DNA from: Arabidopsis thaliana
Lineage: Eukaryota > Streptophyta > Magnoliopsida > Brassicales > Brassicaceae
Assembly: GCF_000001735.4 (NCBI RefSeq)
Contig: NC_003076.8
Span: 5,580,001-5,644,000, forward strand
Length of the DNA stretch: 64,000 nt
Direction of reading: 5' to 3'
Shown here: piece by piece, positions 40,950-59,842 of the stretch
Position numbering within the stretch: the first letter of the stretch is position 1
How the letters are laid out: every line of letters begins with the position of its first letter
The notes under the pieces: model-generated
The model's input: only the letters and a program-made list of their open reading frames with translations
The model's database searches: none
Told to the model about the DNA's origin: nothing
Translations under genes and position numbers: made by a program

Positions 40950-41603
40950 TTGTTTAGGAAACTATTTTTTAAAATTTGAAAATTGCAATGACTATTTTGT
41001 CTTAAATCATATTTCCCATTCTTAAATCAAGTACTCTTTTGGAACATATTTGCAACTGTTTTTTAAGAAACATACTCTTGATTATCCAAATGAAATTCAA
41101 ATGCCATCGATCATCACCAAGTTGATAATCAAACAACTTATATTATACAATGACCACATTATATTCTTTTTATTTGTCTTTAACACCAATAATCATATTA
41201 TCAAACAACATAGCTATGAGTGAAGCAGTTGATTCTTTACTATCATATCAATATATATATATATATATATATATAAAAAAACATAATTCAATAACCATTA
41301 AACTTCATAGTTATACGGGGCACAACTTAAAAAGTTACAGCTTTAGGTCACATTACACAGGTAACATTGAGATAAACCAAGTTCCACCAAGATACAACTC
41401 GGAGCTTAATTATAACTGGAAGCCTAACTTCAATACATATCGTTCTTCAGCTAGACCAAACATCAACATTCCCAATCTGCAATTTAGCTTCAAAATATCA
41501 GAAATTCAGGACAAGAGAATCTTCCAAAAGTACAAGACAATATTACCATAAGCAAAGTTAACACAAATTCTAAGTTGTTCCCACTGAGCAACGAAAGACC
41601 TAC
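40950..41603. other. convergent 3' flanks, with TA repeat
   Basis: 3' flank of the protease gene and of the facing cystatin-related gene. (TA)n run at about 41251-41274. The open frame at 41150-41551 spans the repeat and UTR and is not credible as a gene. Confidence 0.4.
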
Positions 41604-42475
41604 CTATGGAAGTGTTAGGGGTTTAGGGGCTGGTCTGCAGAGAATGGGAACGGGAGATCGATCTCCAACGAAATCCATGGCCTTAGCCTGATACTCCATG
41701 AGAGGCCCATTGGGATACTCCCGAGCCATAAACGTTATATACACCTTCCAACTAGCTCCTCCACCAGTTGTAGTGGCTCTCACAATACTTACAAATTCCA
41801 CAGTCTTTGCCTAAGAAAGCAAGAAAGATGACAAATGATCAATCTTATTATTATTAGAGTTGAGAATATTCTGAAAACAAAGCTTGAATTGCTGAGTACT
41901 GACCTTAAGGTCGTTGAGTTTCTTAACGCACGAGGAAGCCAGACCCGCCAAGTACTCCCTATTAGTCATGTTATCATAAGCTGGTCCATCTAGATTCTGA
42001 ATAGCGTCGATGAAATTGAATGGATCTGGTAAAAAACCCTAAAAATCCATACAAAAAAATAAAGATTATGAAAAGAAACAATTGAAGGCAATCTTGTTAA
42101 TTAGTGAGCAAGAAACTCCATTACCCTATTCTCCAAAGCCTGGATCCTCACTTCGCGGTATTCCATGTAAGCATTGTCGTTAGCGAAGCGGGCACGAAGC
42201 TCAGGATCGGATTCGTATTCGAGCCCATCAAAGCTGTCCACATCCCACTCCGGATCCGGTTTCGGTAAGTCTTCTATCACTTTGTAATCCCCATACGTCA
42301 CGCTTCCATCACCTACTTCACTTTCGCTCTCGCCTTCGGTTTCAGTATCTCCGTCGTCTTCCTCGTCCACCCTATTCGGGGAAAACTTAAAGTTAAATTT
42401 TTCCTTATCGTACGCCAATAAATCCGTTTCTGAAGCTTGTTTTTCCGTCACATCGGAGCTACTATTGGTAGTCAT
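41604..42475 (-). CDS. cystatin-related protein (Arabidopsis-type family)
   Basis: One of a Brassicaceae family annotated as cystatin/monellin-like (AT5G17090-AT5G17100 region). Exons 42125-42475, 41904-42038, 41604-41810; 693 nt, 230 aa. Three-part structure shared by all copies here: an acidic N-terminal exon ending in the motif PEWDVDSFDG plus a basic helix; a middle exon from GFLPDPF to SSCVKKLNDLK; and a C-terminal exon with ITFMAREYPNGPLMEYQAK and PVPILCRPAPKP. The middle and last exons are the part that resembles the cystatin fold, but I see no clear QxVxG inhibitory loop. Acidic run DEEDDGDTETEGESESE. No signal peptide. Function unknown; protease inhibition is only suggested by the family name and the neighbouring protease genes. 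Confidence 0.85.
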
Positions 42476-43349
42476 CGTCGTCGGAGAAACGAACAAACCC
42501 TAGAATTTGATTTGGGATTCCCAACTAGACGATACGTTACGGACACCAAATTTAATGATGCTTGTTGCATGTAATTTACAGATATGCCATTTACTTCCTC
42601 CATTTCTCGTGACGTAATAATATATGGGCCTGGGGATTAAATGGATTAAGCCCAATAGAGAAACATAAACTACAACTATTCCCGCCCGTTTATTTACCGA
42701 ACCAATGGATTTTAAGTTTTGATGGAAGCATTTTTTACTTACAAAGACTAATTTTGAAATTTGAACTATTACTTCTATATAACGCTATCTAACAAAACCA
42801 TCAAAGTATGTGTAACAATAAATCTGTGGATGGAAGATAGAATCCCATCACTGAGATGAGATTCGAAGAACGATATATCGCAGTCCAGAAGATGAATACC
42901 TCAAAGAACAGAAATTTGATGATGGAAGATGATGAACAAGAGATTTGATTATGGAAGTTGATGATGAAGAGAATAAAATTTGTGTTTTTTTTTATTAGTT
43001 GCCCAAATGGCTTATAAATACTGATGATCGTACCAACTACCAAACCAACAAATTGGCTTTTACATCAACTACCAAATTTAAGAAAAATTAAAAATACTTA
43101 AACCGAGCTGTTGGATAAAAAGAGAGGATGAACTTAAACCGGAGAAATGAAGTTGGCTGAGATGATAATGCCTGTAAGTATATATGTTCACTGCACGTTA
43201 TGCAAAAATTATTCATTGTCCACCGAGAGAATTCAAAATTAAGATAAGGTAAGTGACAAGTATGAAGGATCATCATATGATGTGATTCAGTGATTCTAAT
43301 CGAACTAATATCTTTCTTCCAAAAATCATACACATATTGTCACTTACCT
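42476..43349. other. spacer upstream of the first cystatin-related gene
   Basis: Promoter and spacer. The family-typical leader phrase AAACCCTAG lies at 42495-42503. The rest is AT-rich, with GATGATGAA-type repeats (42908-42970). No intact gene. Confidence 0.4.
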
Positions 43350-43493
43350 TGTCCTCGTGGAGTTTCCTAACGCACAAGGAAGCCAGATATATGTGTCAAC
43401 TAACTCATCTCTAGTAGTCCTGTTTTTACCCGATGGGTGCTTCGAGACTACCAAAATTGTAGATTCCGTTTGCGTAATCTGGTATAAATCCCT
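43350..43493 (-). pseudogene. relic middle exon of a cystatin-related gene
   Basis: Reads GFIPDYANGIYNFGSLEAP from 43493 downward, then meets TAA; further on, in another frame, it reads LASLCVRKLHEDK, followed by a GT donor at 43349-43348. These two pieces match the two ends of the family's middle exon (GFLPDP... and ...SCVKKLNDLK), so an exon survives with an internal indel. No first or last exon was found beside it. Confidence 0.75.
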
Positions 43494-43591
43494 GAAAAAT
43501 CCCTAGGAAGCAACAATAATATGTTCATTATCTTCTTTGTAGTAACCTGAAGGCGAAAATGGTTTTCAATTAATCTTTTGATCAATGCGTC

Positions 43592-44700
43592 TTACCCTTC
43601 CCTAGCGTCAACGATACATACAGTCTACAAGTTAGGCAGAAAGATTATAAGTTACAAGACAATAAACAGACAATAATCCGCCCAGAGTTTGACTCGGTAA
43701 ACAACAAAGAAGACTACTTATACATATATGCACCTTTAAATTAATATAGATTTCGGTTCCTGGTTTAGGACTTGGCCTGCAGAGAACTGGGACAGGACGT
43801 TCCTCATCCCCTAAGAAGACTATTACCTTGGCTTGGTACTCAACAAGAGGCCCATCAGAAAACTCTCGAGCCATAAAAGTGATGTACAACCTCCATGTAG
43901 CTGCTCCCCTTGCAGTAACTCTCGCAACATTTACCAACTCTAAAGTCGTTCCCTGTGAAAAATATATAAAACTCAAAAATAAATCCAAAAACCAAAATTC
44001 ATATCTTAAGAAAAAAACAAAACAAAACTTCTCACTCACCTTGGTCTCGTTGTGTTTCTTAACACACACATTAGCAAGCTCTGCCATGAAATCCCTAGTA
44101 CTGTTGTAGCCATCCATTTTACCGTCTAGATCAACATCGTCGATTCCGTTCAAGGTATCAGGAAGAAAACCCTAAAACATACAAAAGAGATTTGTTTTCA
44201 TATTTATTTACTGATTTAATAAAAGCCAACTTCGACAACTAACTAGACAGGCATAGACAAATCTATTGGTGCATATATATTCAGCTAAAAAGGCAGAATG
44301 ATTTTGCAACTGATACGACAAAATTAATAAGTGAAGAGGTTAACTTAAACAGATATACCAACGGTTACAAGAAAAGAATAAACAGTTTTGATTATACCTT
44401 ACTCTTGAAAGCCTCGAGCCTGTCATTGTAGTATTCGTCATAATGTTGCTGGTGACGTCCGTACATCTTACGAACCCTGGGATTGATTTTAAATTCGTGA
44501 CCATCAAAGCTGTCGACGTCCCACTCTGGTTCAGTTTCCGCTAACACGTTATACCCAGCCCACTCGCTGTCGCTGCCGTCATCCATATCGCTGTCGCTGC
44601 TGCTATCCTCGTCGACTTTAGAGATAACCTCCTCCGTGACCGATGAACTCATCATGGAGCCACGGTCTGCCGTTAATTCAATGATCGGTGTGGGAGTCAT
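43592..44700 (-). CDS. cystatin-related protein with lost stop and extra exon
   Basis: Exons 44398-44700, 44040-44171, 43734-43952 and a proposed short last exon 43592-43624; 687 nt, 228 aa. Family features: SSSDSDMDDGSDSEWAGYNV, PEWDVDSFDGHEF, GFLPDTLNGI, LANVCVKKHNETK, ITFMAREFSDGPLVEYQAK, PVPVLCRPSPKPG. In its close tandem paralogue (46563-47474) the stop is the TAA in GGAATCTAA; here the same place reads GGAACCGAA, so translation runs on through TEIYINLK. A GT donor follows and the next AG acceptor (43625) would add TVCIVDAREG and a stop. If that intron is retained, the stop moves to 43632. Function unknown. Confidence 0.75.
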
Positions 44701-44748
44701 CGCCGGGGAAAGAAAATTAAGGAACCCTAGGACACGATTTGGCAATTC

Positions 44749-44975
44749 AGAATTTTTGTCAAGATCGATGTTGGTAAGTAATTAGGGCTGTGACATCATC
44801 TTTGGTTATTGACTTATTTCCTTGCGAAATAAATTAAAAGAGTAATTTTTGACCCAGTAGAATTATGATACTTACAATTTTGACCCGGTTATGTGATACA
44901 ATCCAGTCCGGTTAACAAAATGTATACACCAACAATTATCAGTGCCAAGTGGAACAGAATTGTAAAATATTACTT
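44749..44975. repeat. upstream repeat shared by cystatin-related genes (copy 1)
   Basis: Carries CGGTTATGTGATACAATCCA, then GTCCGGTT, AAAATGTATACACCA and AAGTGGAACAGAA. The same order of phrases is found at 47530-47820 and at 55307-55690. It lies just upstream of the start of the cystatin-related gene at 44700, so it is a duplicated promoter segment. Confidence 0.75.
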
Positions 44976-45034
44976 GCCTTCTCACTGAAAAGCTAACTAT
45001 AGAGTTTTAAGGCTACGGTCCAACAACCCCTTCG

Positions 45035-45619
45035 TCTAAACTAATTACTAAAAGAATATCTACATATACATTTTTGCAACTATTTTGTGAAATAAATCAT
45101 GTAGTTGGAACTTATTTACAATGGTTGCCATTGGATTTTAATGTTTGTTTTTGATAATTAGAAAAAAAATCTTCGAATTAAAAATTTGACATTTAACAAT
45201 CTTCCCTAAATCTCTCCACATTAACTACACGATTAGTTAATAAAATAAAACTTCAAAAATATTTAATATCATTTAATTACTACAAAATTATCATTTTTGA
45301 TATTGCTTTTCTTCATAATTATAACAATTCGATTATAATCATCAAAGCGCAGAGATATTTGATAGCATTTAATTACTACAAAATTACAAAATATTTAGAC
45401 AATAATTCATAAACATATCATAAATAAGATCAACATTAATAAAATAAATGGTTTTTTTACGGACTGGTTAGTGGGACGGGTTTGATAGGACGTTACTTAA
45501 TAACAATTGTAAACTATAAAATAAAAATATTTTATAGATAGATACAATTTGCAAACTTTTATGTATACTACCCTTAAAAAATAAATTGTTTCCGCGGTGT
45601 ACCGCGGATTAAAATCTAG
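45035..45619 (+). mobile_element. non-autonomous Helitron (ATREP-like)
   Basis: The right end has the Helitron layout: a hairpin with the palindrome CCGCGGTGTACCGCGG (45592-45607), 8 nt of spacer, then CTAG (45616-45619) followed by a host T. The left end is less certain; TCTAAACTAATTACTAAAAG at 45035 is the best candidate. The inside is AT-rich, with no ORF, so it would depend on another element for Rep/helicase. Part of the left region resembles 12790-12870. Confidence 0.7.
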
Positions 45620-45639
45620 TATTCATATAAAAATGCTTG

Positions 45640-46400
45640 CTACAAAATATTTAGAGAGGAAGAAGCCTTGTGAGAAAAGGCACAAGTTTAATTCATGTTT
45701 TGAGGTTTGATAATGATATGCACATGCTACAGCCTTTCAGGTGCAAAGAAATGTACAATTAGATCAGACGTACTGAAGAAACAAACAACTCTAGTAGCTA
45801 CCAATGTCACCTACTTAACATATTCTAGTTTTTTTTCCCAAAAAGGTTCTTTTGATATATACTACAAACATAAAACATTACAGCGTTACACTGGAGAAAC
45901 CAAAGTGAGAAGGCAAGCAACTTTTCTAACTTAGATATTACAACTGAAACTAAAGTCACTCCACATTCAACTACTAAAACAAAGGAAATAATATGATAAC
46001 ATCAAAACAGTCTTCATAACTTCCCCAATAAGATCATATTGAGAAGTGCAAATGATCTTATATAGCTTCCAACATTAGCCTTTGTTATGAAAGACACTTA
46101 ACACATATTCTAGTTTATTACTAACTATCTGAACAATATACAAATATTCTTTGAAAAATTCAAGAACTAATTAAACAATACTTAATGAATTAGAAAATGA
46201 TCTCTAGTAAAAAAAATCAGCGCTAATGGCATGATTAAACTATAAATTCCTATATATTATCATTACAATATAAAGGATATTTAATATAATTTTCCAATAA
46301 AACAATATTAGCTGGCCTAGTATTATATTATTACGCAATTCACTATTTTGTTCATCCTCTCATCATCTGTCAAATTTTAATCTTTTATAACTTCGATGCA
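45640..46400. other. AT-rich spacer
   Basis: No gene or element end recognised. The open frame at 45707-45934 is AT-rich and unsupported. Confidence 0.35.
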
Positions 46401-46562
46401 TCTTAGCCTTCGTCAACAATACATATATACAATCCGCAAAGATTACAAGTTAAAAAGAAAAGACAGTACATAATCCCTTCAGAGATCTCATGAGTTTGAC
46501 ACAATAAACAACAAAGAAGAGTTACACATATACCTTTAAATAAACTTTAAATTAATATAGAT

Positions 46563-47474
46563 TTAGATTCCTGGTTTAGGAGCTGCTCTGCAGAGAACTG
46601 GGAAAGGATCCTTGACCCCTAAGAACTTTATTACCTTGGCTTGGTACTCAACAAGAGGCCCATCAGGAAACTCTCGAGCCATAAAAGTGATGTACAACCT
46701 CCATGTAGCTGCTCCCCTTTCAGTAGCTCTCACAACATTTACCAATTCCAAAGTATTTCCCTGTGAAAAAAAATGTATAAAATTCCAAATAAACCAAAAT
46801 ACGAAATTTCTTCAAAAAAAATAAAAAGTAATTCTTTCGACTCACGAACCTTGGTCTCGTTGTGTTTCTTAACACACACATTAGCAAGCTCTGCCATGAA
46901 ATCCCTAGTACTGTTGTAGCCATCCATTTTTTCGTCTAGATAAACATCATAGATTCCATTCAGATGATCAGAAAGAAAACCCTAAAACAAACAAAAGACA
47001 TTTGTTTTCATATTTTTTACTGATTTAATAAAAAACCAACTTGGACAACAAAGGCAGGCATACACAAATCTATTGGTGCATCTATATTCAGCAAAACAAA
47101 TAGCAACTGATAAGAGAAAAGAAGAGGCTTATACAGATATGCCAATGGTTACAAGAAAAGAATTAAACAAATTGTACCTTATTCTCGAAAGCCTTGAGCC
47201 TGTTGTTGTAGTATTTGTCATAAAGTTCCTGGCTGCGGTACATTTGACGAACCCTGGGATTGATTTTAAACTCGTGACCGTCAAAGCTGTCGACGTCCCA
47301 CTCTGGTTCAGTTTCCGCTAACACGTTATACCCAGCCCACTCGCTGTCGCTACCGTAATCCATATCGCTGTCGCTGCTACTATCGTCGTCTTCCTCGTCG
47401 ACTTTAGAGACAACCTCCTCCTTGGTCGATGTACCCATCATGGAAACAGTTAATTCATTGTTGGTCGATGTCAT
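46563..47474 (-). CDS. cystatin-related protein (tandem paralogue)
   Basis: Probably AT5G17110. Exons 47178-47474, 46850-46981, 46563-46760; 627 nt, 208 aa. Very close to the gene at 43592-44700: SSSDSDMDYGSDSEWAGYNV, PEWDVDSFDGHEFKINPRV and LANVCVKKHNETK are shared almost residue for residue. The middle exon begins GFLSDHLNGIYD, the last exon runs ELVNVVRATERGAATWRLYI, and the protein ends KPGI with TAA in place. It has the same acidic N-terminal exon plus cystatin-like C-terminal part. Start MTSTNNELT at 47474; the leader contains AACCCTAG as in the other copies. The first eight codons and the leader were also copied to 49868-49977. Confidence 0.85.
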
Positions 47475-47529
47475 CGCCGGAAAAAACGAAGGAACCCTAG
47501 AACACGATTTGGCAATTCAAGATTCTATC

Positions 47530-47910
47530 TCAACAGTGCGACAAGATCGATGTAGGTACTAGGTAACTAATTAGGGTTGTGACATCGTGTTTGCCTTTTT
47601 GGCTATTTCCCTGCGAAGGAAACGTGTCCCGGTAGATTATGGAACGGTTATTGAGTGGGATATTCGGTTATGTGATGTAATCCAGTCCGGTTTACAAAAT
47701 GTATACACCAAAGTGGAACAAAAAACTTCAATTGTAAGATATTTTAAATTTTATCGGGATTGGTTTGGTATTTTGGCAAGAAAAAATATAACAGAGAGTT
47801 TTGTTTCAAACTTTTCGACCATGAAAAAAGTTCTCGAAACATAGTTGACGAGTTGGCCGATGTTCATATTTTTTTCTTTTCATAGTTGACGAGTTGACTA
47901 TATGAAAATG
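47530..47910. repeat. upstream repeat shared by cystatin-related genes (copy 2)
   Basis: Promoter-side segment of the gene at 46563-47474, almost identical to 49910-49977 plus 55307-55690, the two halves split by the EVD retrotransposon. It contains GATCGATGTAGGTACTAGGT at 47544-47563, the uninterrupted counterpart of the EVD target site. The plus-strand open frame 47587-47844 arises in this repeat and is probably not a gene. Confidence 0.85.
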
Positions 47911-48115
47911 AAACGTGGGGGACAAAATGGGGATTCAACGGATATGCAAGAATTATCATCAAAAAGACTTGTCCTATCTTTTACGTGAGTGGTTTGGTTA
48001 ACTAATTAGTATAAGTTTAAAAATAAAACATATTTAATTATCTTGTGAAGATGGTAAATAATTTATTATTATTTTTATGGATGTAATTATCGTTATTATT
48101 GTTGTTTTTATCGAC
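47911..48115 (+). pseudogene. fragment: 3' end of a papain-like protease gene
   Basis: Starts abruptly at TGGGGGACAAAATGGGGATT, which is inside the last exon of the protease gene at 58188, and follows it through KWGFNGYARI, TCPIFYV, the stop region and about 110 nt of 3' flank. Everything upstream (Cys, His, the first four exons) is missing; the sequence to the left is instead the cystatin upstream repeat. The junction at 47910/47911 is a duplication breakpoint. Confidence 0.85.
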
Positions 48116-48528
48116 TGTGTATTTCTGATTTTTTTTTTAATTGACTCTAATATTGCAAGTTTCCGTTGACTTGTACTTTTTACACTAGTTGAAGTATATG
48201 GCAAATCTTCTTTACCATGAGTCGAACATAAACTCATTGATAACCATTAAAGGCACAACAAAATATTATAGTCATAGACTCATAGGTCACATATATAGGT
48301 CCCACACTTGATTACACCTAACACTTAACATAAAGCTTAAAACTATAACCTCAATGCATCTGAAGCTTGGTTAGCTAGGCGTCAACATATCCAATCTGCA
48401 ATTTAGAAAGAAAGATTAAAGTCAATAATCCCATGAGATCTAATCAAAACTAACACATTACACTTTACACATCATATACTTAAATGACTACAACACACAA
48501 AGAATGATATCATACCTCAAATGCAAGT

Positions 48529-49324
48529 CTAAACAGAGAGTTTAGGACTTGGTCTGCAGAGAATAGGGAAAGGAGGTTTCTCCTGTCCTACATAACTCAT
48601 GACTTTGGCATGGTACTCAACAAGAGGTCCATTGGGATACTCACGAGCCATAAACGTTATATAAGAATTCCATGTAGCTCCTCCTAATTCAATAACTCTT
48701 ACAATCTCTACCAATTCCACAGTCGTTCCCTATATGATAGAATCAACAACCCAAATTTAATGAATCCAAAATGAAAAGTTTTGGATTCATAAGTGTGAAT
48801 CACTAATTAATCACTAACCTTCTCATCGTTTAATTTCTTAACACACAAGTTAGCAAGATCTGTATTCAACTCTCGAGCGGTCATATTACGATACGCTACT
48901 TCTTCAAGATCTTGGATTGGGTAAGTCCCACTCAAAGGTTCTGGAAGAAAACCCTACAAAATTACAAAAAATTGTTCTCAAACCTAATATAATCGGCGAA
49001 ATTTTTACAAGAAAAACCACAAAAAAAAATCGTTACCTTACTCTCGATAGCCTGACGCTTGCGGGTACGAAATTCTTGATAACTGTCTTCGTCGGAGAAA
49101 AACTGACGATCTTCAGGATCTGTCTCGTATTCACGACCATCGTAGCTGTCCACATCCCACTCCGGTTCTGGTTCTGGCACGTATTTATATCTTCTGTCGA
49201 TATCGCTGCCTTCGTCGTCGTCTTCTTCCTCTTCGACTTTGTGCTCCTCCATGAGCGAAGAGTTCATCATTTTCGTCGTCGAAGCTTGTATCTCCATCTC
49301 TTCCTTGATCGATTCAGGAGCCAT
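48529..49324 (-). CDS. cystatin-related protein
   Basis: Probably AT5G17120. Exons 49037-49324, 48819-48953, 48529-48729; 624 nt, 207 aa. Start MAPESIKEEM at 49324. Acidic N-terminal exon (EEEEDDDEGSDIDRRY), PEWDVDSYDGREYETDPEDR, middle exon GFLPEPLSGTYPIQDLEEV to NLCVKKLNDEK, last exon ELVEIVRVIELGGATW, ITFMAREYPNGPLVEYHAK, PFPILCRPSPKLSV. It is the duplicate of the gene at 58801-59592; the similarity continues on both sides (47911-49402 against 58188-59670). A 3' UTR intron is likely, as in that copy: a GT donor just after the stop region and an AG before ATTGGATATG near 48398. Function unknown. Confidence 0.85.
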
Positions 49325-49510
49325 GATCGGAGAAAACCCTAGATCAGATCTTAAAAACAATTTGAGAATTTCAAGGAACCGGAACTTAAAAAGAGTATTT
49401 TACTACAAGCATGTGTTTCTCTTTGTGCATAATAGTTAGATTCTAAATTCCTTGTTTGCTAACAAGTTTAAGTGTTTTGACTTAATGTAGATTTTATGCA
49501 TGTTTTGCAG

Positions 49511-49867
49511 ATTTGTAAAATCAAGACAAGATTTCTTACCAAACCCACGCGACTCCTGAGGAAATTCGAGGATTACGTACTACTGATTATATTGGTATTA
49601 GTGTTAATGTACGTGGAATATTTTTTCGCATCGAAGAGGTAAGTATAAATAAAAACTGAAATTATATATAAAAAGCTATTCAATAGTATTAACCAATATA
49701 GTTTAATTATGATTGCTTATGTGAAACAATTTAAGGAGATCTATATTCTGCCTAAACCGGAAGAAGGTATCAGGTATGGGAGAGACATGCTTTGATCATT
49801 GTTGGTTACGGTACAACAAAAGATTGACAAATTGTTTTTCATTGTCCAAAACACGTAGAGGACAAAT
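49511..49867 (+). pseudogene. broken papain-like protease gene (exons 4-5 only)
   Basis: 49511-49638 matches exon 4 of the gene at 57830-57961 (ACCAAACCCACGCGACTCC, ending GAAGAG/GTAAGT) but is 4 nt shorter net, with a deletion in the AACGCG stretch. About 49730-49867 matches its last exon but the acceptor CAG has become CAA, the frame is broken after KPEEG, and the Trp of the active-site Asn motif NTWG is TAG. At about 49868 it joins the reversed 5' end of a cystatin-related gene. Exons 1-3 are absent. Confidence 0.85.
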
Positions 49868-49977
49868 GTTAATTCGTTGTTGGTCGATGTCATCGCCGGA
49901 AAAAAACGAAGGAACCCTAGAACACGATTTGGCAATTCAAGACTCTATCTCAACAGTGCGACAAGATCGATGTAGGT
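49868..49977 (-). pseudogene. 5' end of a cystatin-related gene, truncated
   Basis: Minus-strand leader and first eight codons (MTSTNNELT region, start at 49891) of a copy of the 46563-47474 gene. After the ninth codon it runs into the broken protease exon. On the other side it is interrupted at 49977/49978 by the EVD 5' LTR, and its upstream sequence continues after the 3' LTR at 55307. Confidence 0.85.
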
Positions 49978-50383
49978 TATTGATCAAGACTCAAATAAGA
50001 AAGGCCTAGTATTGGATATGTACTACAAGAGAGTGGGCCGAACATATGAGAAGTCTATGAAGAGCTTCTAGAAGAGGTGAAGGCACACAAATATCTCTTG
50101 TAGCCGTTGAAGAGGACTCACGAGTGTCTTTAGCAACAAGGTCAACCAATGACCAGTCACTCTCATCACCAAGACCAAGGAACCTCTTCTCTTATGTCTC
50201 TTTCAGTCTTACGTTAATTGTAAACAGCCATATTCTCTTTGTGTGTCTTTAAAAGCATTGTAAACACACAAAGGTTACTATCTAATTCTATCAATATGAT
50301 TTGGTCTCATATTCTCTCACATACAAACTCTCTTGTTCTTCATAACTCTCTTAATCTTTAATACAATTCCGCATATTCTTTCA
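49978..50383 (+). repeat. 5' LTR of EVD
   Basis: 406 bp, from TATTGATCAAGACTC to CGCATATTCTTTCA. It begins TATTGA rather than TG; the right end is CA. Same length and, by eye, same sequence as the 3' LTR. Contains the promoter for the element's transcript. Confidence 0.95.
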
Positions 50384-50395
50384 TGGTATCAGAGC
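50384..50395 (+). other. primer-binding site (initiator tRNA-Met)
   Basis: TGGTATCAGAGC, complementary to the 3' end of plant initiator methionine tRNA, directly abuts the 5' LTR. This is the minus-strand priming site of Ty1/Copia elements. Confidence 0.95.
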
Positions 50396-50537
50396 ATAAG
50401 ATCATGTCTTTATGCTTATAAATCTTCTATTCTCATTCTATTCTTCATTTTCTCGAAATCTCTTCATCATTCTCTAGCTTCATCTCTTTTAACCAACAGA
50501 TAATAGCTTTATTCATCAGTCCGTTTGTGCTTGAATC

Positions 50538-53500
50538 ATGGAGACTTCTCAAAAGATGATTACTACGGTGATACTTCAAGGGGGAAACTACCTAACTTGG
50601 TCAAGAACAACAAAAACGGTGTTGTGTGGTCGTGGGCTTTGGAGCCATGTAATCTCATCTAAAGCTCCAAAAGAAGCCAAAGAAGAAGAAGAAACGGAGA
50701 CTATATCTCCCGAGGAAGAAAAATGGTTCCAAGAGGATCAAGCTGTCCTTGCTCTTCTTCAAAACTCTCTTGAAACCTCTATTCTAGAGGGATACTCTTA
50801 CTGTGAGACAGCAAAAGAGTTGTGGGATACACTTAAAAACGTGTATGGGAACGAATCGAATTTGACCCGCGTGTTTGAAGTGAAGAAGGCGATTAACGAA
50901 CTAAGTCAAGAAGACTTAGAGTTTACTAAACACTTTGGTAAGTTCAGGTCCTTATGGTCTGAACTTGAGAGCTTGAGGCCGGGAACGCTTGACCCGAAGA
51001 TTCTCCACGAAAGGCGTGAGCAAGACAAGGTGTTTGGACTCCTTCTCACCTTAAATCCAGGGTACAATGACCTAATTAAACACTTGCTTAGGTCGGAGAA
51101 GTTACCAAGTCTTGATGAGGTGTGTTCTAAGATTCAGAAAGAGCAAGGATCAACCGGGCTATTTGGTGGAAAAAGTGAACTCATCACGGCTAACAAAGGA
51201 GAAGTAGTGGCGAACAAAGGTGTGTACAAGAATGAGGATAGAAAACTGTTGACTTGTGATCATTGTAAGAAGAAGGGCCACACCAAAGACAAATGTTGGT
51301 TGCTACATCCACACCTCAAGCCCGCCAAGTTCAAAGACTCAAGAGCTCATCTCTCTCAAGAAACTCATGAGGAGCAAAGTCAAGCCGGGTCATCGAAAGG
51401 AGAGACATCCACATCATTCGGAGACTATGTGAGGAAGTCGGACTTGGAAGCACTCATCAAGTCCATTGCTTCACTCAAAGAATCCGGTATCACTTTCTCA
51501 TCACAAACATCTAGTAGTTCAATTGTGATAGACTCGGGTGCTTCTCATCATATGATTAGTAACTCTAATCTTCTTGATAACATAGAACCAGCTCTAGGAC
51601 ATGTTATTATTGCTAATGGTGACAAAGTTCCAATTGAAGGGATAGGAAACTTGAAATTGTTTAACAAAGATTCAAAAGCTTTCTTTATGCCTAAGTTCAC
51701 ATCTAACTTATTATCCGTGAAAAGGACCACTAGAGACTTAAATTGTTATGCGATTTTTGGCCCTAATGATGTGTATTTTCAGGATATTGAGACGGGAAAA
51801 GTTATTGGAGAAGGTGGTTCAAAAGGAGAACTCTATGTTCTTGAAGACTTGTCACCAAACTCTTCTAGCTGTTTTTCCTCTAAGTCACATTTAGGCATCT
51901 CTTTTAATACTTTGTGGCATGCTAGGCTAGGTCATCCTCATACTAGAGCTCTTAAACTCATGTTACCAAATATTTCTTTTGATCATACAAGTTGTGAGGC
52001 TTGTATTCTTGGTAAACATTGCAAATCGGTTTTTCCTAAATCTCTTACTATCTATGAGAAATGTTTTGATCTAGTTCATTCGGATGTTTGGACCTCACCA
52101 TGTGTTTCTAGAGACAACAACAAATATTTTGTCACATTTATTGATGAGAAATCAAAGTACACTTGGATAACACTATTACCCTCAAAAGATAGAGTGTTTG
52201 AAGCTTTCACTAACTTTGAAACCTATGTCACTAATCAATTTAATGCAAAGATTAAAGTGTTTAGGACCGATAATGGAGGAGAATACACAAGCCAAAAGTT
52301 TCGAGATCATCTAGCCAAACGTGGAATAATACACCAAACAAGTTGCCCGTACACACCACAACAAAATGGAGTGGCGGAGAGAAAGAACCGACATCTCATG
52401 GAGGTGGCGCGGTCAATGATGTTTCATACAAGTGTTCCAAAGAGATTTTGGGGTGATGCGGTCTTAACCGCGTGCTACCTTATCAATCGAACACCAACTA
52501 AAGTCTTAAGTGACTTATCTCCCTTCGAGGTACTTAACAATATTAAACCGTTCATTGATCACTTACGAGTGTTTGGTTGTGTATGTTTTGTTTTGATACC
52601 CGGAGAACAAAGAAGCAAGCTAGATGCGAAGAGCACTAAGTGTATGTTTCTTGGCTACTCAACTACTCAAAAAGGATATAAATGCTTTGATCCAACCAAG
52701 AACCGCACATTTATATCCCGAGATGTCAAGTTTCTTGAAAACCAAGACTACAACAACAAGAAGGATTGGGAGAACCTAAAAGATCTTACTCATTCCACCT
52801 CCGATCGTGTTGCAACTCTAAAGTTTCTATTGGATCATTTGGGCAATGACTCAACTTCGACAACTCAACATCAACCGGAGATGACACAAGATCAAGAAGA
52901 CTTGAATCAAGAGAATGAGGAGGTGTCCCTACAACATCAAGAAAATCTTACACACGTGCAAGAAGATCCTCCAAACACACAAGAACACTCTGAACATGTT
53001 CAAGAAATCCAAGATGACTCAAGTGAAGATGAAGAACGTACACAAGTTCTTCCACCTCCACCACCTCTTAGAAGGAGTACACGCATTCGACGCAAGAAGG
53101 AATTCTTCAACTCTAATGCGGTAGCTCATCCTTTCCAAGCGACATGTTCTCTTGCCCTTGTACCTCTAGATCATCAAGCGTTTCTCTCCAAGATTTCTGA
53201 GCATCGGATTCCTCAAACATATGAAGAGGCAATGGAAGTCAAGGAATGGAGGGATGCGATAGCCGATGAGATAAACGCTATGAAACGAAATCATACTTGG
53301 GATGAAGATGACTTACCTAAAGGAAAGAAAACAGTGAGCTCAAGGTGGGTATTCACAATCAAGTATAAGAGTAATGGAGATATCGAGAGATATAAAACTC
53401 GCTTGGTGGCTCGGGGGTTCACGCAAACATATGGCTCCGACTACATGGAGACTTTTGCTCCGGTGGCTAAGCTACACACGGTGAGAGTGGTTCTTGCCTT

Positions 53501-54752
53501 AGCAACAAATTTATCATGGGGACTATGGCAAATGGATGTCAAGAATGCATTTCTCCAAGGCGAACTTGAAGATGATGTGTATATGACGCCTCCACCCGGT
53601 CTAGAAGATACCATTCCATGTGATAAAGTGTTGAGACTACGCAAAGCTATCTATGGTCTTAAACAATCTCCACGTGCATGGTACCACAAGCTCAGCCGAA
53701 CTCTTAAAGATCATGGATTCAAGAAGTCCGAGTCCGATCACACTTTGTTTACATTACAAAGTCCTCAAGGTATTGTCGTTGTTCTCATCTATGTTGATGA
53801 TCTTATCATCACCGGAGACAACAAAGACGGTATAGACTCTACCAAGACTTTTCTTAAATCTTGTTTTGATATTAAAGATCTTGGTGAACTCAAATACTTC
53901 CTAGGAATTGAAGTGTGTCGCTCTAATGCTGGACTCTTTCTATCACAACGCAAATACACTCTTGACTTGTTGAATGAGACAGGTTTTATGGACGCTAAAC
54001 CGGCTCGCACTCCACTTGAAGATGGCTACAAGGTCAATCGAAAGGGGGAGAAAGAAGATGAGAAGTTTGGCGATGCACCTCTCTATCGCAAACTTGTAGG
54101 TAAGTTGATCTATTTGACAAACACAAGACCTGACATTTGTTTTGCGGTAAATCAGGTTAGTCAACACATGAAAGTCCCGATGGTGTATCATTGGAACATG
54201 GTGGAGAGAATACTAAGGTATCTCAAAGGCAGCTCCGGACAAGGCATATGGATGGGAAAGAACTCAAGCACCGAGATAGTGGGATATTGCGATGCGGACT
54301 ATGCGGGTGATAGAGGAGATAGAAGATCTACAACTGGTTATTGTACGTTCATTGGAGGTAACCTTGCAACTTGGAAGACAAAGAAACAGAAGGTGGTCTC
54401 ATGTTCGAGTGCAGAATCGGAGTATAGAGCAATGAGAAAGCTCACCAACGAACTCACTTGGCTTAAAGCTCTTCTTAAAGATGTTGGCATTGAACAACAC
54501 ATGCCTATCACCATGCATTGTGACAACAAGGCAGCAATATACATAGCCTCAAATTCGGTGTTTCATGAGAGAACCAAGCATATTGAAGTCGATTGTCATA
54601 AAGTCCGAGAGAAGATCATCGAAGGAGTCACACTACCGTGTTATACAAGAAGTGAAGATCAGTTGGCGGATATCTTCACCAAAGCCGCAAGTCTCAAAGT
54701 TTGCAACTTCATACATGGCAAATTAGGACTTGTGGATCTATCTCACTCTTGA
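50538..54752 (+). CDS. EVD: EVD gag-pol polyprotein
   Basis: Single uninterrupted frame, 1404 aa, in the Copia order. Gag: UBN2/retrotran-gag-type region about residues 60-190, CCHC zinc knuckle at 240-253 (CDHCKKKGHTKDKC). Protease: DSGA with Asp332. Integrase: zinc-binding HARLGHPH and CEACILGKHC, then catalytic Asp516, Asp578 and Glu614 with the classic 35-residue D-E gap, followed by a GKNR-like segment. Reverse transcriptase: WQMDVKNAFLQG, YVDD at 1085-1088. RNase H: DADYAGD, TTGYCTF, SSAESEY. No stop, frameshift or lost catalytic residue was seen, so it appears competent. It is known from the literature that EVD also makes a spliced, prematurely ended gag mRNA to raise the Gag:Pol ratio; I did not place that intron. 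Confidence 0.96.
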   Translation: METSQKMITTVILQGGNYLTWSRTTKTVLCGRGLWSHVISSKAPKEAKEEEETETISPEEEKWFQEDQAVLALLQNSLETSILEGYSYCETAKELWDTLKNVYGNESNLTRVFEVKKAINELSQEDLEFTKHFGKFRSLWSELESLRPGTLDPKILHERREQDKVFGLLLTLNPGYNDLIKHLLRSEKLPSLDEVCSKIQKEQGSTGLFGGKSELITANKGEVVANKGVYKNEDRKLLTCDHCKKKGHTKDKCWLLHPHLKPAKFKDSRAHLSQETHEEQSQAGSSKGETSTSFGDYVRKSDLEALIKSIASLKESGITFSSQTSSSSIVIDSGASHHMISNSNLLDNIEPALGHVIIANGDKVPIEGIGNLKLFNKDSKAFFMPKFTSNLLSVKRTTRDLNCYAIFGPNDVYFQDIETGKVIGEGGSKGELYVLEDLSPNSSSCFSSKSHLGISFNTLWHARLGHPHTRALKLMLPNISFDHTSCEACILGKHCKSVFPKSLTIYEKCFDLVHSDVWTSPCVSRDNNKYFVTFIDEKSKYTWITLLPSKDRVFEAFTNFETYVTNQFNAKIKVFRTDNGGEYTSQKFRDHLAKRGIIHQTSCPYTPQQNGVAERKNRHLMEVARSMMFHTSVPKRFWGDAVLTACYLINRTPTKVLSDLSPFEVLNNIKPFIDHLRVFGCVCFVLIPGEQRSKLDAKSTKCMFLGYSTTQKGYKCFDPTKNRTFISRDVKFLENQDYNNKKDWENLKDLTHSTSDRVATLKFLLDHLGNDSTSTTQHQPEMTQDQEDLNQENEEVSLQHQENLTHVQEDPPNTQEHSEHVQEIQDDSSEDEERTQVLPPPPPLRRSTRIRRKKEFFNSNAVAHPFQATCSLALVPLDHQAFLSKISEHRIPQTYEEAMEVKEWRDAIADEINAMKRNHTWDEDDLPKGKKTVSSRWVFTIKYKSNGDIERYKTRLVARGFTQTYGSDYMETFAPVAKLHTVRVVLALATNLSWGLWQMDVKNAFLQGELEDDVYMTPPPGLEDTIPCDKVLRLRKAIYGLKQSPRAWYHKLSRTLKDHGFKKSESDHTLFTLQSPQGIVVVLIYVDDLIITGDNKDGIDSTKTFLKSCFDIKDLGELKYFLGIEVCRSNAGLFLSQRKYTLDLLNETGFMDAKPARTPLEDGYKVNRKGEKEDEKFGDAPLYRKLVGKLIYLTNTRPDICFAVNQVSQHMKVPMVYHWNMVERILRYLKGSSGQGIWMGKNSSTEIVGYCDADYAGDRGDRRSTTGYCTFIGGNLATWKTKKQKVVSCSSAESEYRAMRKLTNELTWLKALLKDVGIEQHMPITMHCDNKAAIYIASNSVFHERTKHIEVDCHKVREKIIEGVTLPCYTRSEDQLADIFTKAASLKVCNFIHGKLGLVDLSHS

Positions 54753-54890
54753 TCTCATGTTCTCTAACCATGGACATCACACTCTTTTTCCCTTAGTAAA
54801 GTTTCTCCCATGTGGTTTTCTTTACTAAGGTTTTTAATGAGGTGATGAATCATGTGTTCCAAGCTTAGACTCTTGCATAAGTCTTGCGCT

Positions 54891-54900
54891 TGAGGGGGAG
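54891..54900 (+). other. polypurine tract of EVD
   Basis: TGAGGGGGAG immediately before the 3' LTR; primes plus-strand DNA synthesis in LTR elements. Confidence 0.85.
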
Positions 54901-55306
54901 TATTGATCAAGACTCAAATAAGAAAGGCCTAGTATTGGATATGTACTACAAGAGAGTGGGCCGAACATATGAGAAGTCTATGAAGAGCTTCTAGAAGAGG
55001 TGAAGGCACACAAATATCTCTTGTAGCCGTTGAAGAGGACTCACGAGTGTCTTTAGCAACAAGGTCAACCAATGACCAGTCACTCTCATCACCAAGACCA
55101 AGGAACCTCTTCTCTTATGTCTCTTTCAGTCTTACGTTAATTGTAAACAGCCATATTCTCTTTGTGTGTCTTTAAAAGCATTGTAAACACACAAAGGTTA
55201 CTATCTAATTCTATCAATATGATTTGGTCTCATATTCTCTCACATACAAACTCTCTTGTTCTTCATAACTCTCTTAATCTTTAATACAATTCCGCATATT
55301 CTTTCA
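54901..55306 (+). repeat. 3' LTR of EVD
   Basis: 406 bp from TATTGATCAAG to ATTCTTTCA, indistinguishable by eye from the 5' LTR. Host sequence resumes with GGTACTAGGTAAG. Confidence 0.95.
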
Positions 55307-55690
55307 GGTACTAGGTAAGTAATTAGGGTTGTGAAGTGTTTGCCTTTTTGGTTATTTCCCTGCGAAGGAAACGTGTCGCGGTAGATTATGGAACGGTTAT
55401 TGAGTGGGATTTTCGGTTATGCGATGTAATCCAGTCCGGTTTACAAAATGTATACAACAAGTGGAACAGAACTTCAATTGTTAAATATTGGAAACTTTTT
55501 CGGGATTGGTTTGGTGTTTTGGTAAGAAAAAAATCATATTAAGTTGATGAATGATAAGTTAAATTTAACAGCTTACCAAAAAAAAATTAAATATAACAGA
55601 GTTTTCTTTAAAACTTTTCGACCATTAAAAAAGTTCTCGAAACATAGTACACGAGTTGGCCGATGTTCATTATTTTTTCTTTTCAAGACT
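55307..55690. repeat. upstream repeat of cystatin-related genes (copy 3, right half)
   Basis: Continues the sequence interrupted at 49977. Runs parallel to 47556-47890 with small indels (GTACTAGGTAAGTAATTAGG, then GGTAGATTATGGAACGGTTA, AATCCAGTCCGGTTTACAAA) and ends near TATATGAAAATGAA. The open frame 55336-55542 is the counterpart of the one at 47587 and shares its doubtful status. Confidence 0.85.
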
Positions 55691-56971
55691 ATATGAAAAT
55701 GAATATAGAGCTAGGGTTCACATTAAGATATTCCATCAATACATAGGTTGAACATCTATCCAGTTAAGTGGCTCAAAGCCTTGTTTCGCTATGAAAATCG
55801 ATCGTTGATTTTGTAGATAAGTTCTTCGATGTTGATCTCCAAAGTTTTGTAGATACTTAAAGCTGAGTCAAACCTCCCATGATCAACTCATATATGGTTT
55901 CTTATGCTTTGCTTAATTTATGTTGGCTGCAATTATGCAAGTCTAGAGTTTAGTTCTTTCAAAAAAAAAAGGTTTAGGTTTAGTTTTGCCTTAGTTTTTA
56001 AAACAGTAGTACCAAACACTTTAAAGAATGTTAGTTCGGTTTAGATTTTTGATTAAGTACTTAGTACTTACTAATTGTGTATAGTGGAACCAGGCAGAGA
56101 AAAGGATAGACGAATCAATCTTATTGCGCAAAGGATCCAAAGAAACAGTAAAAGCCAAGAACTAGAATATTTACAAGCCCAAACTGTCATTAAACCATTA
56201 AGGCCCATAAGGTTCCCGTATGATTGAACTGAATCAGGTCGAGAAAAAGATAAACAGAGAAGAAAGAGAGTGATACTTCTTTAGGGAAAAATGAAAGATA
56301 GAGGGAAACTATTGAGATTGTTAGTCAAACAAAAGGTTACTATTAGTAAAACGATAGTGGGTACAGCTTTGATAAACTTAAATGCATTCGTAAATCATAA
56401 AATACGTAATTACCCTCATTTTATCCAACATTAGTAAGGTTTATCAAAGATAGCTGTAAAGTTCATAGAATTCTAGTCAGTTTTTCACAACTTTAAGTTT
56501 GAGTTTTGAGGTTTTCTCCTTCGTTTTGATTAATAAATAACCCTCTCTCTTGCTCATTAGTGCATGTCTTTAACTTCTCCGCAAAGGTATCATCTTTTCT
56601 CATTTTTTTTTTTGTCAAAACTTCTATGGGTGTAAGATTTATGTATTTCAAGATCGGTGGTGCTTCGAGTGTTGTAAACAAGATTTCTGTATCTCTTTTC
56701 ATCGAAAAATGGGTTTCTCATTTGTCTTCCCTTGCAAATTAATAACTTGTTCAAAAAGAAACATGATCTCATATACATCATCGAACTTGTTAATACAATT
56801 TCTAAATGATTTTGAAAAATATGTTTATAATTGCTGATCATATGATTGAATCTTAAATCATTTTAGCTATTATAAATAAAGTTCTATTTTTTTGTTGTTG
56901 TTTTTATCTGTTTTATAGCTAAGATCACGGTTGATTAGTTTTAAACTTTAATGAATCTATATTCAACAGAA
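55691..56971. other. spacer upstream of the second protease gene
   Basis: AT-rich, no gene seen. A T-run with CTTCTATGGGTGTAAG near 56603-56636 and the open frames on both strands around 56560-56840 have no family resemblance. The leader of the protease gene probably lies at 56900-56971. Confidence 0.35.
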
Positions 56972-58273
56972 ATGGAAGACTACAATGGTGGTTTTGGTGG
57001 CATTGGAACCGGGGGAGGGAAAGGCAAAGGAAAAAATATACCAAACCAACGCAAGCTAGATGTTGAAGCTCAACGTGAACAAGCGAAGAAAACACAACAA
57101 GATGGTGAAAGAGCAGAATCAGTCGAGGAATTTCCAATTCCAAAAGTGACGTTTATAATTTTAGTTTTATACTCTTTTTTTTGGTTATTGGAATGTTAAG
57201 AATATTATTTTGTTTATATGTCTAAAAATTATCTATGTTGTATAGGATTATGGGGATGGTAGTCGTATCGATTTCTGTTGGACTCGTACACATAAGCATT
57301 TGCTACAGAGAATTGTAGAGCAAAAAGAAGGTATCAATTATTTATTTTCTTATTCCAAAATATACTAGATGTATTATATAGAATAGAGTTAACAATGCTA
57401 ATATATTTTTGTACATTGCAGACGATTGTTGGGCTTGGGCTCTAGTTAGAATCTTGCAATTTTACTACAACATGAACATTACCGCAATTGCTGAGCAGAA
57501 GACCTTATCAATCAAATCACTTGTCAACATGTGATACTTGGGAAGAAAGAAGCAGAGAACAATAACAAGTTAGACAAAAAAAGTTTGGCTGTTACTTCAT
57601 TAAAGAGAGCTATTGACTACATTTTCGAGAAAGGAATTGAAAGAGATTATGGCACACAGGTTTCCATTCGTTTATAATAAAGAAGGATATACTTTTTCTA
57701 TATGTTACATGCATTTTTAGCTCTTTGTGCATATAGTTTGTTTCTAATATCCTGTTTAGGAAAAAAAAAACAAAGTGACAAGCGTTTCCACATACTATAT
57801 ATGTGTGATTTTTTATATATGTTTAGCAGATGTATAAAATAAAGGCAAGTTTTATTACCAAACCCAACGCGACTCCGGAGGAAATCCGAGGATTACTACT
57901 CACTCAAGGTCCTATTGGTATAAGTGTTGATTTATGTGGAATATTTCGTCAAGTTTATGAGGTAACTAAAGAAATGTATAGTTTGTATTTGTATAGAATA
58001 AAACTATCCATCAATACAACGGCTATTAACCGATAAAATTTATTTATGATTGTTTATGTGAAACAGTTCAAGGGGATCTATGTTCTGCCTGAACCAAAAG
58101 AAAATATGGAAAGGCACGCTTTGATCATTGTGGGTTTTGGTACAACAAAAGATAGCAAATTGTTTTTCATTGTCCAAAACACGTGGGGGACAAAATGGGG
58201 ATTCAACGGATATGCAAGAATTATCATCAAAAAGACTTGTCCTATCTTTTACGTGAGTGAATTGGTTAACTAA
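56972..58273 (+). pseudogene. papain-like cysteine protease homologue, frame-disrupted
   Basis: Probably AT5G17140. Exons by comparison with the gene at 39594: 56972-57145, 57246-57330, 57422-57659, 57830-57961, 58067-58273. Gly/Lys-rich N-terminus GGIGTGGGKGKGKNIPN without signal peptide or prodomain; Cys in DDCWAWALV; His in ERHALIIVGFG; Asn in VQNTWGTKWGFNGYARI. Exon 3 is 238 nt against 239 nt in the intact paralogue, and the frame entering it reaches TGA at 57532-57534; the conserved continuation (EDLINQIT to EKGIERDYG) is in another frame. The last two exons read through normally, ending SELVN. So it is either a pseudogene, or expressed from a splice form I could not find; current annotation may treat it as coding. 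Tail-to-tail with the cystatin-related gene at 58801. Confidence 0.65.
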
Positions 58274-58800
58274 TTATAAGTTTTAAAATAAAAACATATT
58301 TAATTATCTTGTGAAGATGGTAAATAATTTATTATTATTTTTATGGATGTAATTATCGTTATTATTGTTGTTTTTATCGACTCTAATCTATGGCTTGCCA
58401 GACTAGTATTTCTTAAATTTTTAATAATTGACTCTATTTGTTGTAAGCTTCCTTTGACTTGTACATGTTACAGTACTAGTTAAAGTATATGGCAAATCTT
58501 CTTAGTATGCATTATTTGAACATAGTCTCAATGATACATCAACCATTAAAAGTACAACAGAATTATAGTCATAGGTCACATATATAGGTCCCAAAGTTGA
58601 CTACACTTAACACTTAATATAATAAAGCCTAAAACTACAACCTCATTGCATCTGAGCCTTGGTTAGCTAGGCGTCAACAAACCCAATCTGCAATTTAGGA
58701 GTCAACAACAAGAGATATCAAAACTGACACATTTACACTACACATCACATACTTAGAGACTGCAAAACACAAAGAAAGATATCATACCTAAAATGCAAGT
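58274..58800. other. convergent 3' flanks of protease and cystatin-related genes
   Basis: Left part (to about 58383) is also present at 47995-48115. Right part contains the probable 3' UTR exon of the cystatin-related gene (acceptor CTGCAATTTAG-side at 58688-58700, antisense) ahead of 58800. Confidence 0.45.
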
Positions 58801-59592
58801 CTAAACAGAGAGTTTAGGACTTGGTCTGCAAAGTATCGGGAAAGGAGGTTTCTCGTTTCCTGCATAGTTCATGACTTTGGCTTGGTACTCCACAAGAGGT
58901 CCATTAGGATACTCTCGAGCCATAAACGTTATATATGAATACCATCTAAATCCTCCTGAGTCAATAACTCTGACAATCTCTACCAATTCCACAGTCTGTC
59001 CCTATGAAAGAATCAACAACCCAAATTTAATGAATCCAAAATGAAACGTTGTAAATTCATTTGTGTGAATCACTAATCTCGCCCAAATCACTAACCTTCT
59101 CATCGTTTAATTTCTTAACACACAAGTTCGCAAGATTTGTCATCAACTCCCGAGCAGTCATGTTACGATACGCTATTTCATCCAGATACTTAATTGGGTA
59201 GATTCCACTCAAAGGTTCAGGAATAAAACCCTACAAGTTACACAAAACTGAGGATAATTCTCAATCCAAAACCAAATCGATGAAAATTTTACAAGAAAAA
59301 CAAAAGAAAATCGTTATACCTTACTGGCGAAAGCCTGACGCTTGCGGATACGGTATTCATTATACTCATCCTCATCGGAGAAAATTTGACGATCTTCAGG
59401 ATCGGATTCGTATTCACGACCATCGTAGCTGTCCACATCCCACTCCGGTTCTGGTCCTGGCACGTATTTATACCTTCTGTCGATATCACTGCCTCCGTCT
59501 TCTTCTTCCTCTTCGACTTTGTGCTCTTCCATTAGAGAAGAATTCACCATATCCGTCGTCGAAGCTTGTTTCACCGTCGATTCAGGAGCCAT
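58801..59592 (-). CDS. cystatin-related protein
   Basis: Probably AT5G17150. Exons 59320-59592, 59096-59230, 58801-59001; 609 nt, 202 aa. Start MAPESTVKQ at 59592. Acidic N-terminal exon (VEEEEEDGGSDIDRRY), PEWDVDSYDGREYESDPEDR, middle exon GFIPEPLSGIYPIKYLDEI to NLCVKKLNDEK, last exon ELVEIVRVIDSGGFRWYSY, ITFMAREYPNGPLVEYQAK, PFPILCRPSPKLSV. Duplicate of 48529-49324. The third exon is followed after the stop by a likely UTR intron (GT near 58786, AG before ATTGGGTTTG at 58688). No signal peptide and no clear QxVxG loop. Function unknown; shares the tail-to-tail arrangement with a papain-like gene. Confidence 0.85.
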
Positions 59593-59842
59593 GATCGGAG
59601 AAAACCCTAGAACAGCTCTTTAAAAACAATTTGGGAATTTCCAAGAACCAGAACTTAAAAGAGTATTTTGAGCTTATTATTTTGTAATAAAATCAACACA
59701 TTGCAACACATTTAAACAAAAGATCTCTTTCCAAATTGAGTGTTTTTTATTCAAACCAAAGGGAACAACACTTTTTGTTTATCTGTCTGAGACAACAAGA
59801 AGAACAACAAAAGAAAGACAAAGCACATTTGAGTCTCCCTCG

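Follow-up and report, generated by a model that had tools for sequence, protein, structure and literature searches.

A complete Ty1/copia retrotransposon, almost certainly EVADE, in the Arabidopsis thaliana Columbia reference genome: anatomy, insertion site and comparison with the sister copy ATR

The Copia93 elements described in Arabidopsis thaliana are EVD (AT5G17125) and ATR (AT1G34967) (PMC8892269), and transposition after the loss of DNA methylation is reported in the published text of four papers (PMC7756957, PMC11624286, PMC10462705, PMC12312487). EVD serves as a standard model for the way plants first recognize and silence a moving transposon. In the text of PMC11624286, AT5G17125 is named as the parental EVD and new insertions were mapped, the target-site duplications of which are given as mostly 5-8 bp, and as 5 bp specifically in the case of EVD. 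The production of two RNAs, the preferential translation of Gag, ribosome stalling and the formation of siRNAs are also described (PMC8892269, PMC11624286), and an ATCOPIA93 solo LTR is reported upstream of RPP4 (PMC7385966, PMC8616336).

We analyzed an element at 49978-55306 of a 64,000-nucleotide stretch of the Columbia reference genome (5,580,001-5,644,000 of contig 5; the window, in which all the positions are given unless a contig is named). This element is almost certainly EVADE (EVD, ATCOPIA93, AT5G17125), a complete autonomous Ty1/copia LTR retrotransposon. Our own analysis yielded the structure of the element, the presence of two copies in the genome, the identity of the LTRs, the geometry of splicing, the 5-bp duplications at the solo LTRs and the empty site; the data on expression, silencing and transposition were taken from the papers cited. 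The anatomy of the element and its activity after the loss of DNA methylation are ordinary and already in print, and confirming the reference copy is useful rather than new; small details of the insertion site and of the sister copy ATR may be new.

Anatomy, coding capacity and splicing

The features of the element are as follows:
49978..50383, + strand, 5' LTR (406 bp, TATTG...TTTCA; 0/406 differences from the 3' LTR)
50384..50395, + strand, primer-binding site TGGTATCAGAGC, directly after the 5' LTR, complement of the 3' end of a Met tRNA
50538..54752, + strand, gag-pol in a single frame (1404 codons plus stop)
51487..51782, + strand, shGAG intron (296 bp, GT...AG), its junction deduced from the shGAG reverse primer in print (PMC11624286)
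52083..52379, + strand, integrase catalytic stretch from D516 to E614 (Pfam rve; codons checked; PDB matches to Ty1 and PFV integrases)
53289..54020, + strand, reverse transcriptase (Pfam RVT_2, residues 118-361 of the third frame piece; YVDD at codon 1085)
54892..54900, + strand, polypurine tract GAGGGGGAG, directly before the 3' LTR
54901..55306, + strand, 3' LTR (406 bp)

The sequence-only reading of this stretch had described two indistinguishable LTRs of 406 bp, an abutting primer-binding site, a polypurine tract and an unbroken frame of 1404 codons, and all these structures were recovered. The base-by-base alignment of the LTRs gave no difference, their first 300 bases forming one exact repeat; the primer-binding site begins at 50384 and pairs with tRNA-Met; the polypurine tract adjoins the 3' LTR; and the frame at 50538-54752 carries no internal stop. 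Since the pattern GCTCTGATA was far too common in the tRNA search (531 + 592 sites), it was dropped, and a longer pattern giving six sites was used instead, one of which was checked. ARAGORN predicts a tRNA-Met(CAT) gene in the same genome (locus L068), and the 12 bases of TGGTATCAGAGC pair with its 3' end followed by CCA. The two LTRs, with the abutting tRNA primer site and the polypurine tract, are thus all present. The next longest stop-to-stop frame overlapping the 40-64 kb region has 266 codons, and an exact repeat of 406 bp around a frame of 1404 codons is not due to chance.

When the frame was searched against Pfam in three pieces, Retrotran_gag_2, gag_pre-integrs, rve, SH3_retrovirus and RVT_2 were found in this order, all above their cut-offs. 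The CCHC, DSGA and YVDD motifs are located at codons 240, 332 and 1085, respectively, and the integrase residues are D516, D578 and E614, with 35 residues between the last two. The Ty1/copia order gag - protease - integrase - reverse transcriptase is therefore present in one frame, with the DSGA motif as the sole sign of the protease. In the PDB, the integrase core is matched best by 7z0h (E 1.8e-16), labeled Integrase in the table of matches, which we take to be the Ty1 integrase. The earlier statement that all the catalytic residues are present stands in the case of the zinc knuckle, DSGA, DD35E and YVDD; the RNase H residues are putative, recognized by motif, and RNase H gave no match in Pfam, nor did the piece carrying the reverse transcriptase and RNase H give any match in the PDB.

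Six of the ten published EVD oligonucleotides (PMC11624286) were mapped, the four bisulfite oligonucleotides being set aside. Five match exactly, and the sixth, the shGAG reverse primer, matches as 6 and 18 bases flanking 51487-51782. The computed frame of the spliced form stops after 318 codons, the stop codon ending at 51790, and the mapped sites are thus consistent with the shGAG form of ATCOPIA93/EVD, in which a stop follows soon after the junction. The same 296-bp intron with GT and AG ends is present in ATR. The mapped primers cannot distinguish between EVD and ATR because none of the differences between the two copies falls within them. The assignment to EVD at AT5G17125 made from the sequence is nevertheless borne out by the fit of these primers and by the two-copy state on contigs 5 and 1, which corresponds to the published EVD/ATR pair.

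Insertion site and its neighborhood

Three further features define the site of insertion:
47449..47912, + strand, paralogous empty site in a tandem-duplicated flank (blastn), with GGTAC at 47555-47559
49975..49977, + strand, 5' copy of the target site, GGT only (a 5-bp copy would read GGTAC)
55307..55311, + strand, 3' copy of the target site, GGTAC

The flanks of EVD read ...GATGTAGGT before the element and GGTACTAGG... after it, with only the 3 bp GGT in common, and a 5-bp target-site duplication is thus absent from this insertion. The published text searched makes no mention of the duplication of the native copy. The four solo LTRs of the family, on the other hand, all carry perfect 5-bp duplications (ACTTA, AGAGG, TTATA and TTAAA) directly at TATTG and TTTCA; TTATA and TTAAA were read by eye from longer flanks, the blast match starting inside both of these LTRs. 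The ends of the LTR are fixed independently in this way, because the duplications adjoin TATTG and TTTCA.

The paralogous segment at 47449-47912, located 2.4 kb upstream of EVD, is 97% identical to the 110 bp of 5' flank adjoining the element (49868-49977) and runs on into the 3' flank (55307-55703) without any element, at 75% identity (blastn, 415 aligned columns, gaps included). It reads GATGTAGGTACTAGG. The simplest account would be that the native insertion duplicated GGTAC and that 2 bp are missing at the 5' junction, whether they were lost later, were lost at integration or are missing through an error in the reference. It is unlikely, though well within reason, that the duplication measured 3 bp from the start, as the result either of a 3-bp stagger or of a target differing from the paralogue: GGT is all that the two flanks share, and around the target a second paralogue (44696-44932) has a different sequence, so that the site may have varied. 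The 5-bp duplications at 4/4 solo LTRs, the lengths published for new EVD insertions (PMC11624286) and the occurrence of GGTAC at the site in the nearest paralogue, the one that is 97% identical on the 5' side, all argue in favor of an original duplication of 5 bp from which 2 bp are missing. In either case, the short duplication is a property of a single EVD insertion, and a worn duplication does not exclude membership of the Ty1/copia family. As the native EVD has no clean 5-bp duplication, tools requiring one may miss the element or set its boundaries wrongly.

EVD is surrounded at 41600-59700 by an array of diverged, decayed repeats (blastn matches to the flanks, 70-97% identity). In one of these repeats, a fragment of a papain-like cysteine protease occurs at 58037-58270 (Peptidase_C1, E 5e-12; a weaker related model falls below the cut-off) and overlaps a 77% match to the 5' flank of EVD at 57811-58194. 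At E 0.001, Pfam yielded no match for 10 flanking frames. The protease fragment came from a laxer scan (E up to 1, six flanking frames, one of them repeated), in which a match at 47575-47841 fell below the cut-off and was disregarded, and the other four flanking frames, including that of the EVD 5' flank, gave nothing.

The ATCOPIA93 family and the sister copy ATR

The LTR has nine matches in its own genome (119.66 Mb searched): EVD and a full-length copy on contig 1 (C1) account for two each, and the others are four single LTRs (three on C3, one on C4) and a 57-bp piece on C3. The four single LTRs were searched over stretches of 9 kb, in which no EVD-like internal sequence accompanies them. 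Of the interior, the piece 50384-51800 is closely matched only by the two full-length copies, with four further matches at 65-76% identity; the piece 53400-54900 is closely matched at a third place, immediately upstream of the C1 copy. Chromosomes 5 and 1 therefore carry one near-identical full-length copy each, EVD being that on chromosome 5, and the genome search proposed with the original reading yielded the expected sister at C1:12755060-12760389. The LTR at C4:9496129-9496521, which is 91% identical to that of EVD, is presumably the ATCOPIA93 solo LTR located upstream of RPP4. In the solo LTRs on C4 (L013:4130-4522) and at 16.4 Mb on C3 (L014:4036-4417), the 5' end is longer and of variant sequence after TATTGATCAAGA, and these two perhaps belong to a separate LTR subtype.

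At an assumed rate of 7e-9 substitutions per site per year, the identical LTRs bound the insertions of EVD and ATR at less than about 0.53 million years each (95% in the case of EVD), and the EVD insertion would thus be young, if this rate holds. It is most improbable that the LTR identity results from gene conversion or a merge in the assembly instead of youth: the four LTRs of EVD and ATR are indeed identical, and the interiors differ at 25/4517 sites, but the chance of finding 0 differences in 406 positions at the interior rate is about 0.11, which is not unusual, and the copies lie on different contigs, the flanks of EVD having no match beside the C1 copy. At the same rate, these 25 differences in 4517 internal sites suggest that the lineages of EVD and ATR parted about 0.4 million years ago.

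In the pairwise alignment, EVD and ATR differ at 26 positions, corresponding to 25 substitutions and one 1-bp indel located outside the frame, with none in the LTRs. Of the changes within the frame, 14 are replacements and 8 are silent (ratio about 0.48), with no departure from the neutral expectation (p 0.11). Among the 25 substitutions, nine look derived in ATR, six look derived in EVD and ten have no assignment; the polarity rule used was lenient, since it was based on at most four distant relatives and the presence of just one of the two states in a single relative sufficed. Since derived changes occur in both copies, neither seems to descend from the other, and EVD as the parent of ATR was rejected on these grounds.

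One of the replacements in ATR falls between the first and second catalytic residues of the integrase core, at a position where EVD has an acidic residue. Among the 30 best-scoring copia loci (of 150 scored matches, from 402 candidates), 29 cover this position (L043 does not), and the acidic residue is kept by EVD and 27 others, the sole exception being ATR; for comparison, the catalytic positions are kept in 29/29, 27/30 and 30/30 loci. In the alignments with the best PDB match, 7z0h, and with the foamy-virus integrase, the acidic residue is also kept. No published link to this replacement was found in the literature text searched, figures and supplements lying outside the scope of the search; Fig. 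3a of PMC12312487 shows substitutions in an alignment. Activation of ATR in Col-0 mutants has been reported, and the replacement can therefore do no more than reduce its mobility or make ATR rely on the EVD enzyme. We raise tentatively, as a rather doubtful suggestion, that the difference in mobility between EVD and ATR might be partly protein-based, through the replacement of this acidic residue in the ATR integrase core. If this is so, ATR would depend on the EVD integrase or would integrate poorly, besides lying in different chromatin. The mobility gap between these near-identical copies, which is treated as an open question in the text of PMC12312487, is thereby made testable with existing data.

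Immediately upstream of the 5' LTR of ATR lie a polypurine tract and some 1.55 kb of a second, 5'-truncated ATCOPIA93 copy, which spans about 12753506-12755059 on C1 (L009:8446-9999) and extends to about 12755465 when its LTR (L010:1-406) is included. The truncated copy and ATR thus have one LTR in common, which is the 3' LTR of the former and the 5' LTR of the latter, in an int-LTR-int-LTR arrangement. Over 1560 aligned sites, the truncated copy shows 14 differences from EVD and 14 from ATR, a 7-bp gap being counted per base in both comparisons. A neighbor of ATR belonging to the same family is reported to be co-activated with it (PMC6374409), and the common LTR could physically explain this co-activation if that neighbor is the truncated copy.

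Mobility and comparison with known systems

In the mechanism proposed, the 5' LTR would drive a full-length RNA, the unspliced form of which would yield Gag-Pol, while RNA spliced at 51487-51782 would yield Gag only. The RNA would be packed into Gag particles and DNA would be copied from the Met-tRNA primer and the polypurine tract, after which the integrase would insert this DNA with a 5-bp target duplication. The claim that EVD moves when DNA methylation is lost agrees with the text of the papers cited above. For 49900-55400, the small-RNA mapping proposed with the original reading, and methylation mapping likewise, have already appeared in comparable form (PMC11624286, PMC7756957). The further claim that this is the source copy, able to transpose, stands in so far as those papers make it a source of new copies in mutants; it is not evidently the ancestor of ATR, and the sequence evidence is in itself no proof of competence. 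Mobility cannot be shown from sequence alone, because no movement was observed for an intact copy in Tsu-0 whose LTRs are identical (PMC12312487), and LTR identity was rejected as a proof of competence for this reason. That the present copy is likewise intact and immobile, the new copies coming from the chromosome-1 sister, is extremely improbable despite the Tsu-0 example, as pyrosequencing at a diagnostic base assigned most of the ATCOPIA93 DNA in mutants, extrachromosomal and integrated DNA being pooled, to EVD (PMC7756957), AT5G17125 is the named parental copy (PMC11624286), and the integrase replacement is found in ATR and not in EVD.

Compared with the published EVD, the element analyzed here has the same full-length pair on contigs 5 and 1, the same primers, shGAG junction and domain order, and no departure was found, a 3-bp target duplication being absent from the published text examined. 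ATTRAPE (ATR, AT1G34967) is also full-length, with LTRs identical to those of EVD and an open frame of equal length. The solo LTR on C4, presumably the one upstream of RPP4, differs from the EVD LTR in its longer 5' end and has its own 5-bp duplication, TTATA. The yeast element Ty1 is distant in sequence and has a similar integrase core, as the match to 7z0h indicates. The two elements differ in the way in which extra Gag is made: EVD makes it through splicing, whereas Ty1 uses a frameshift.
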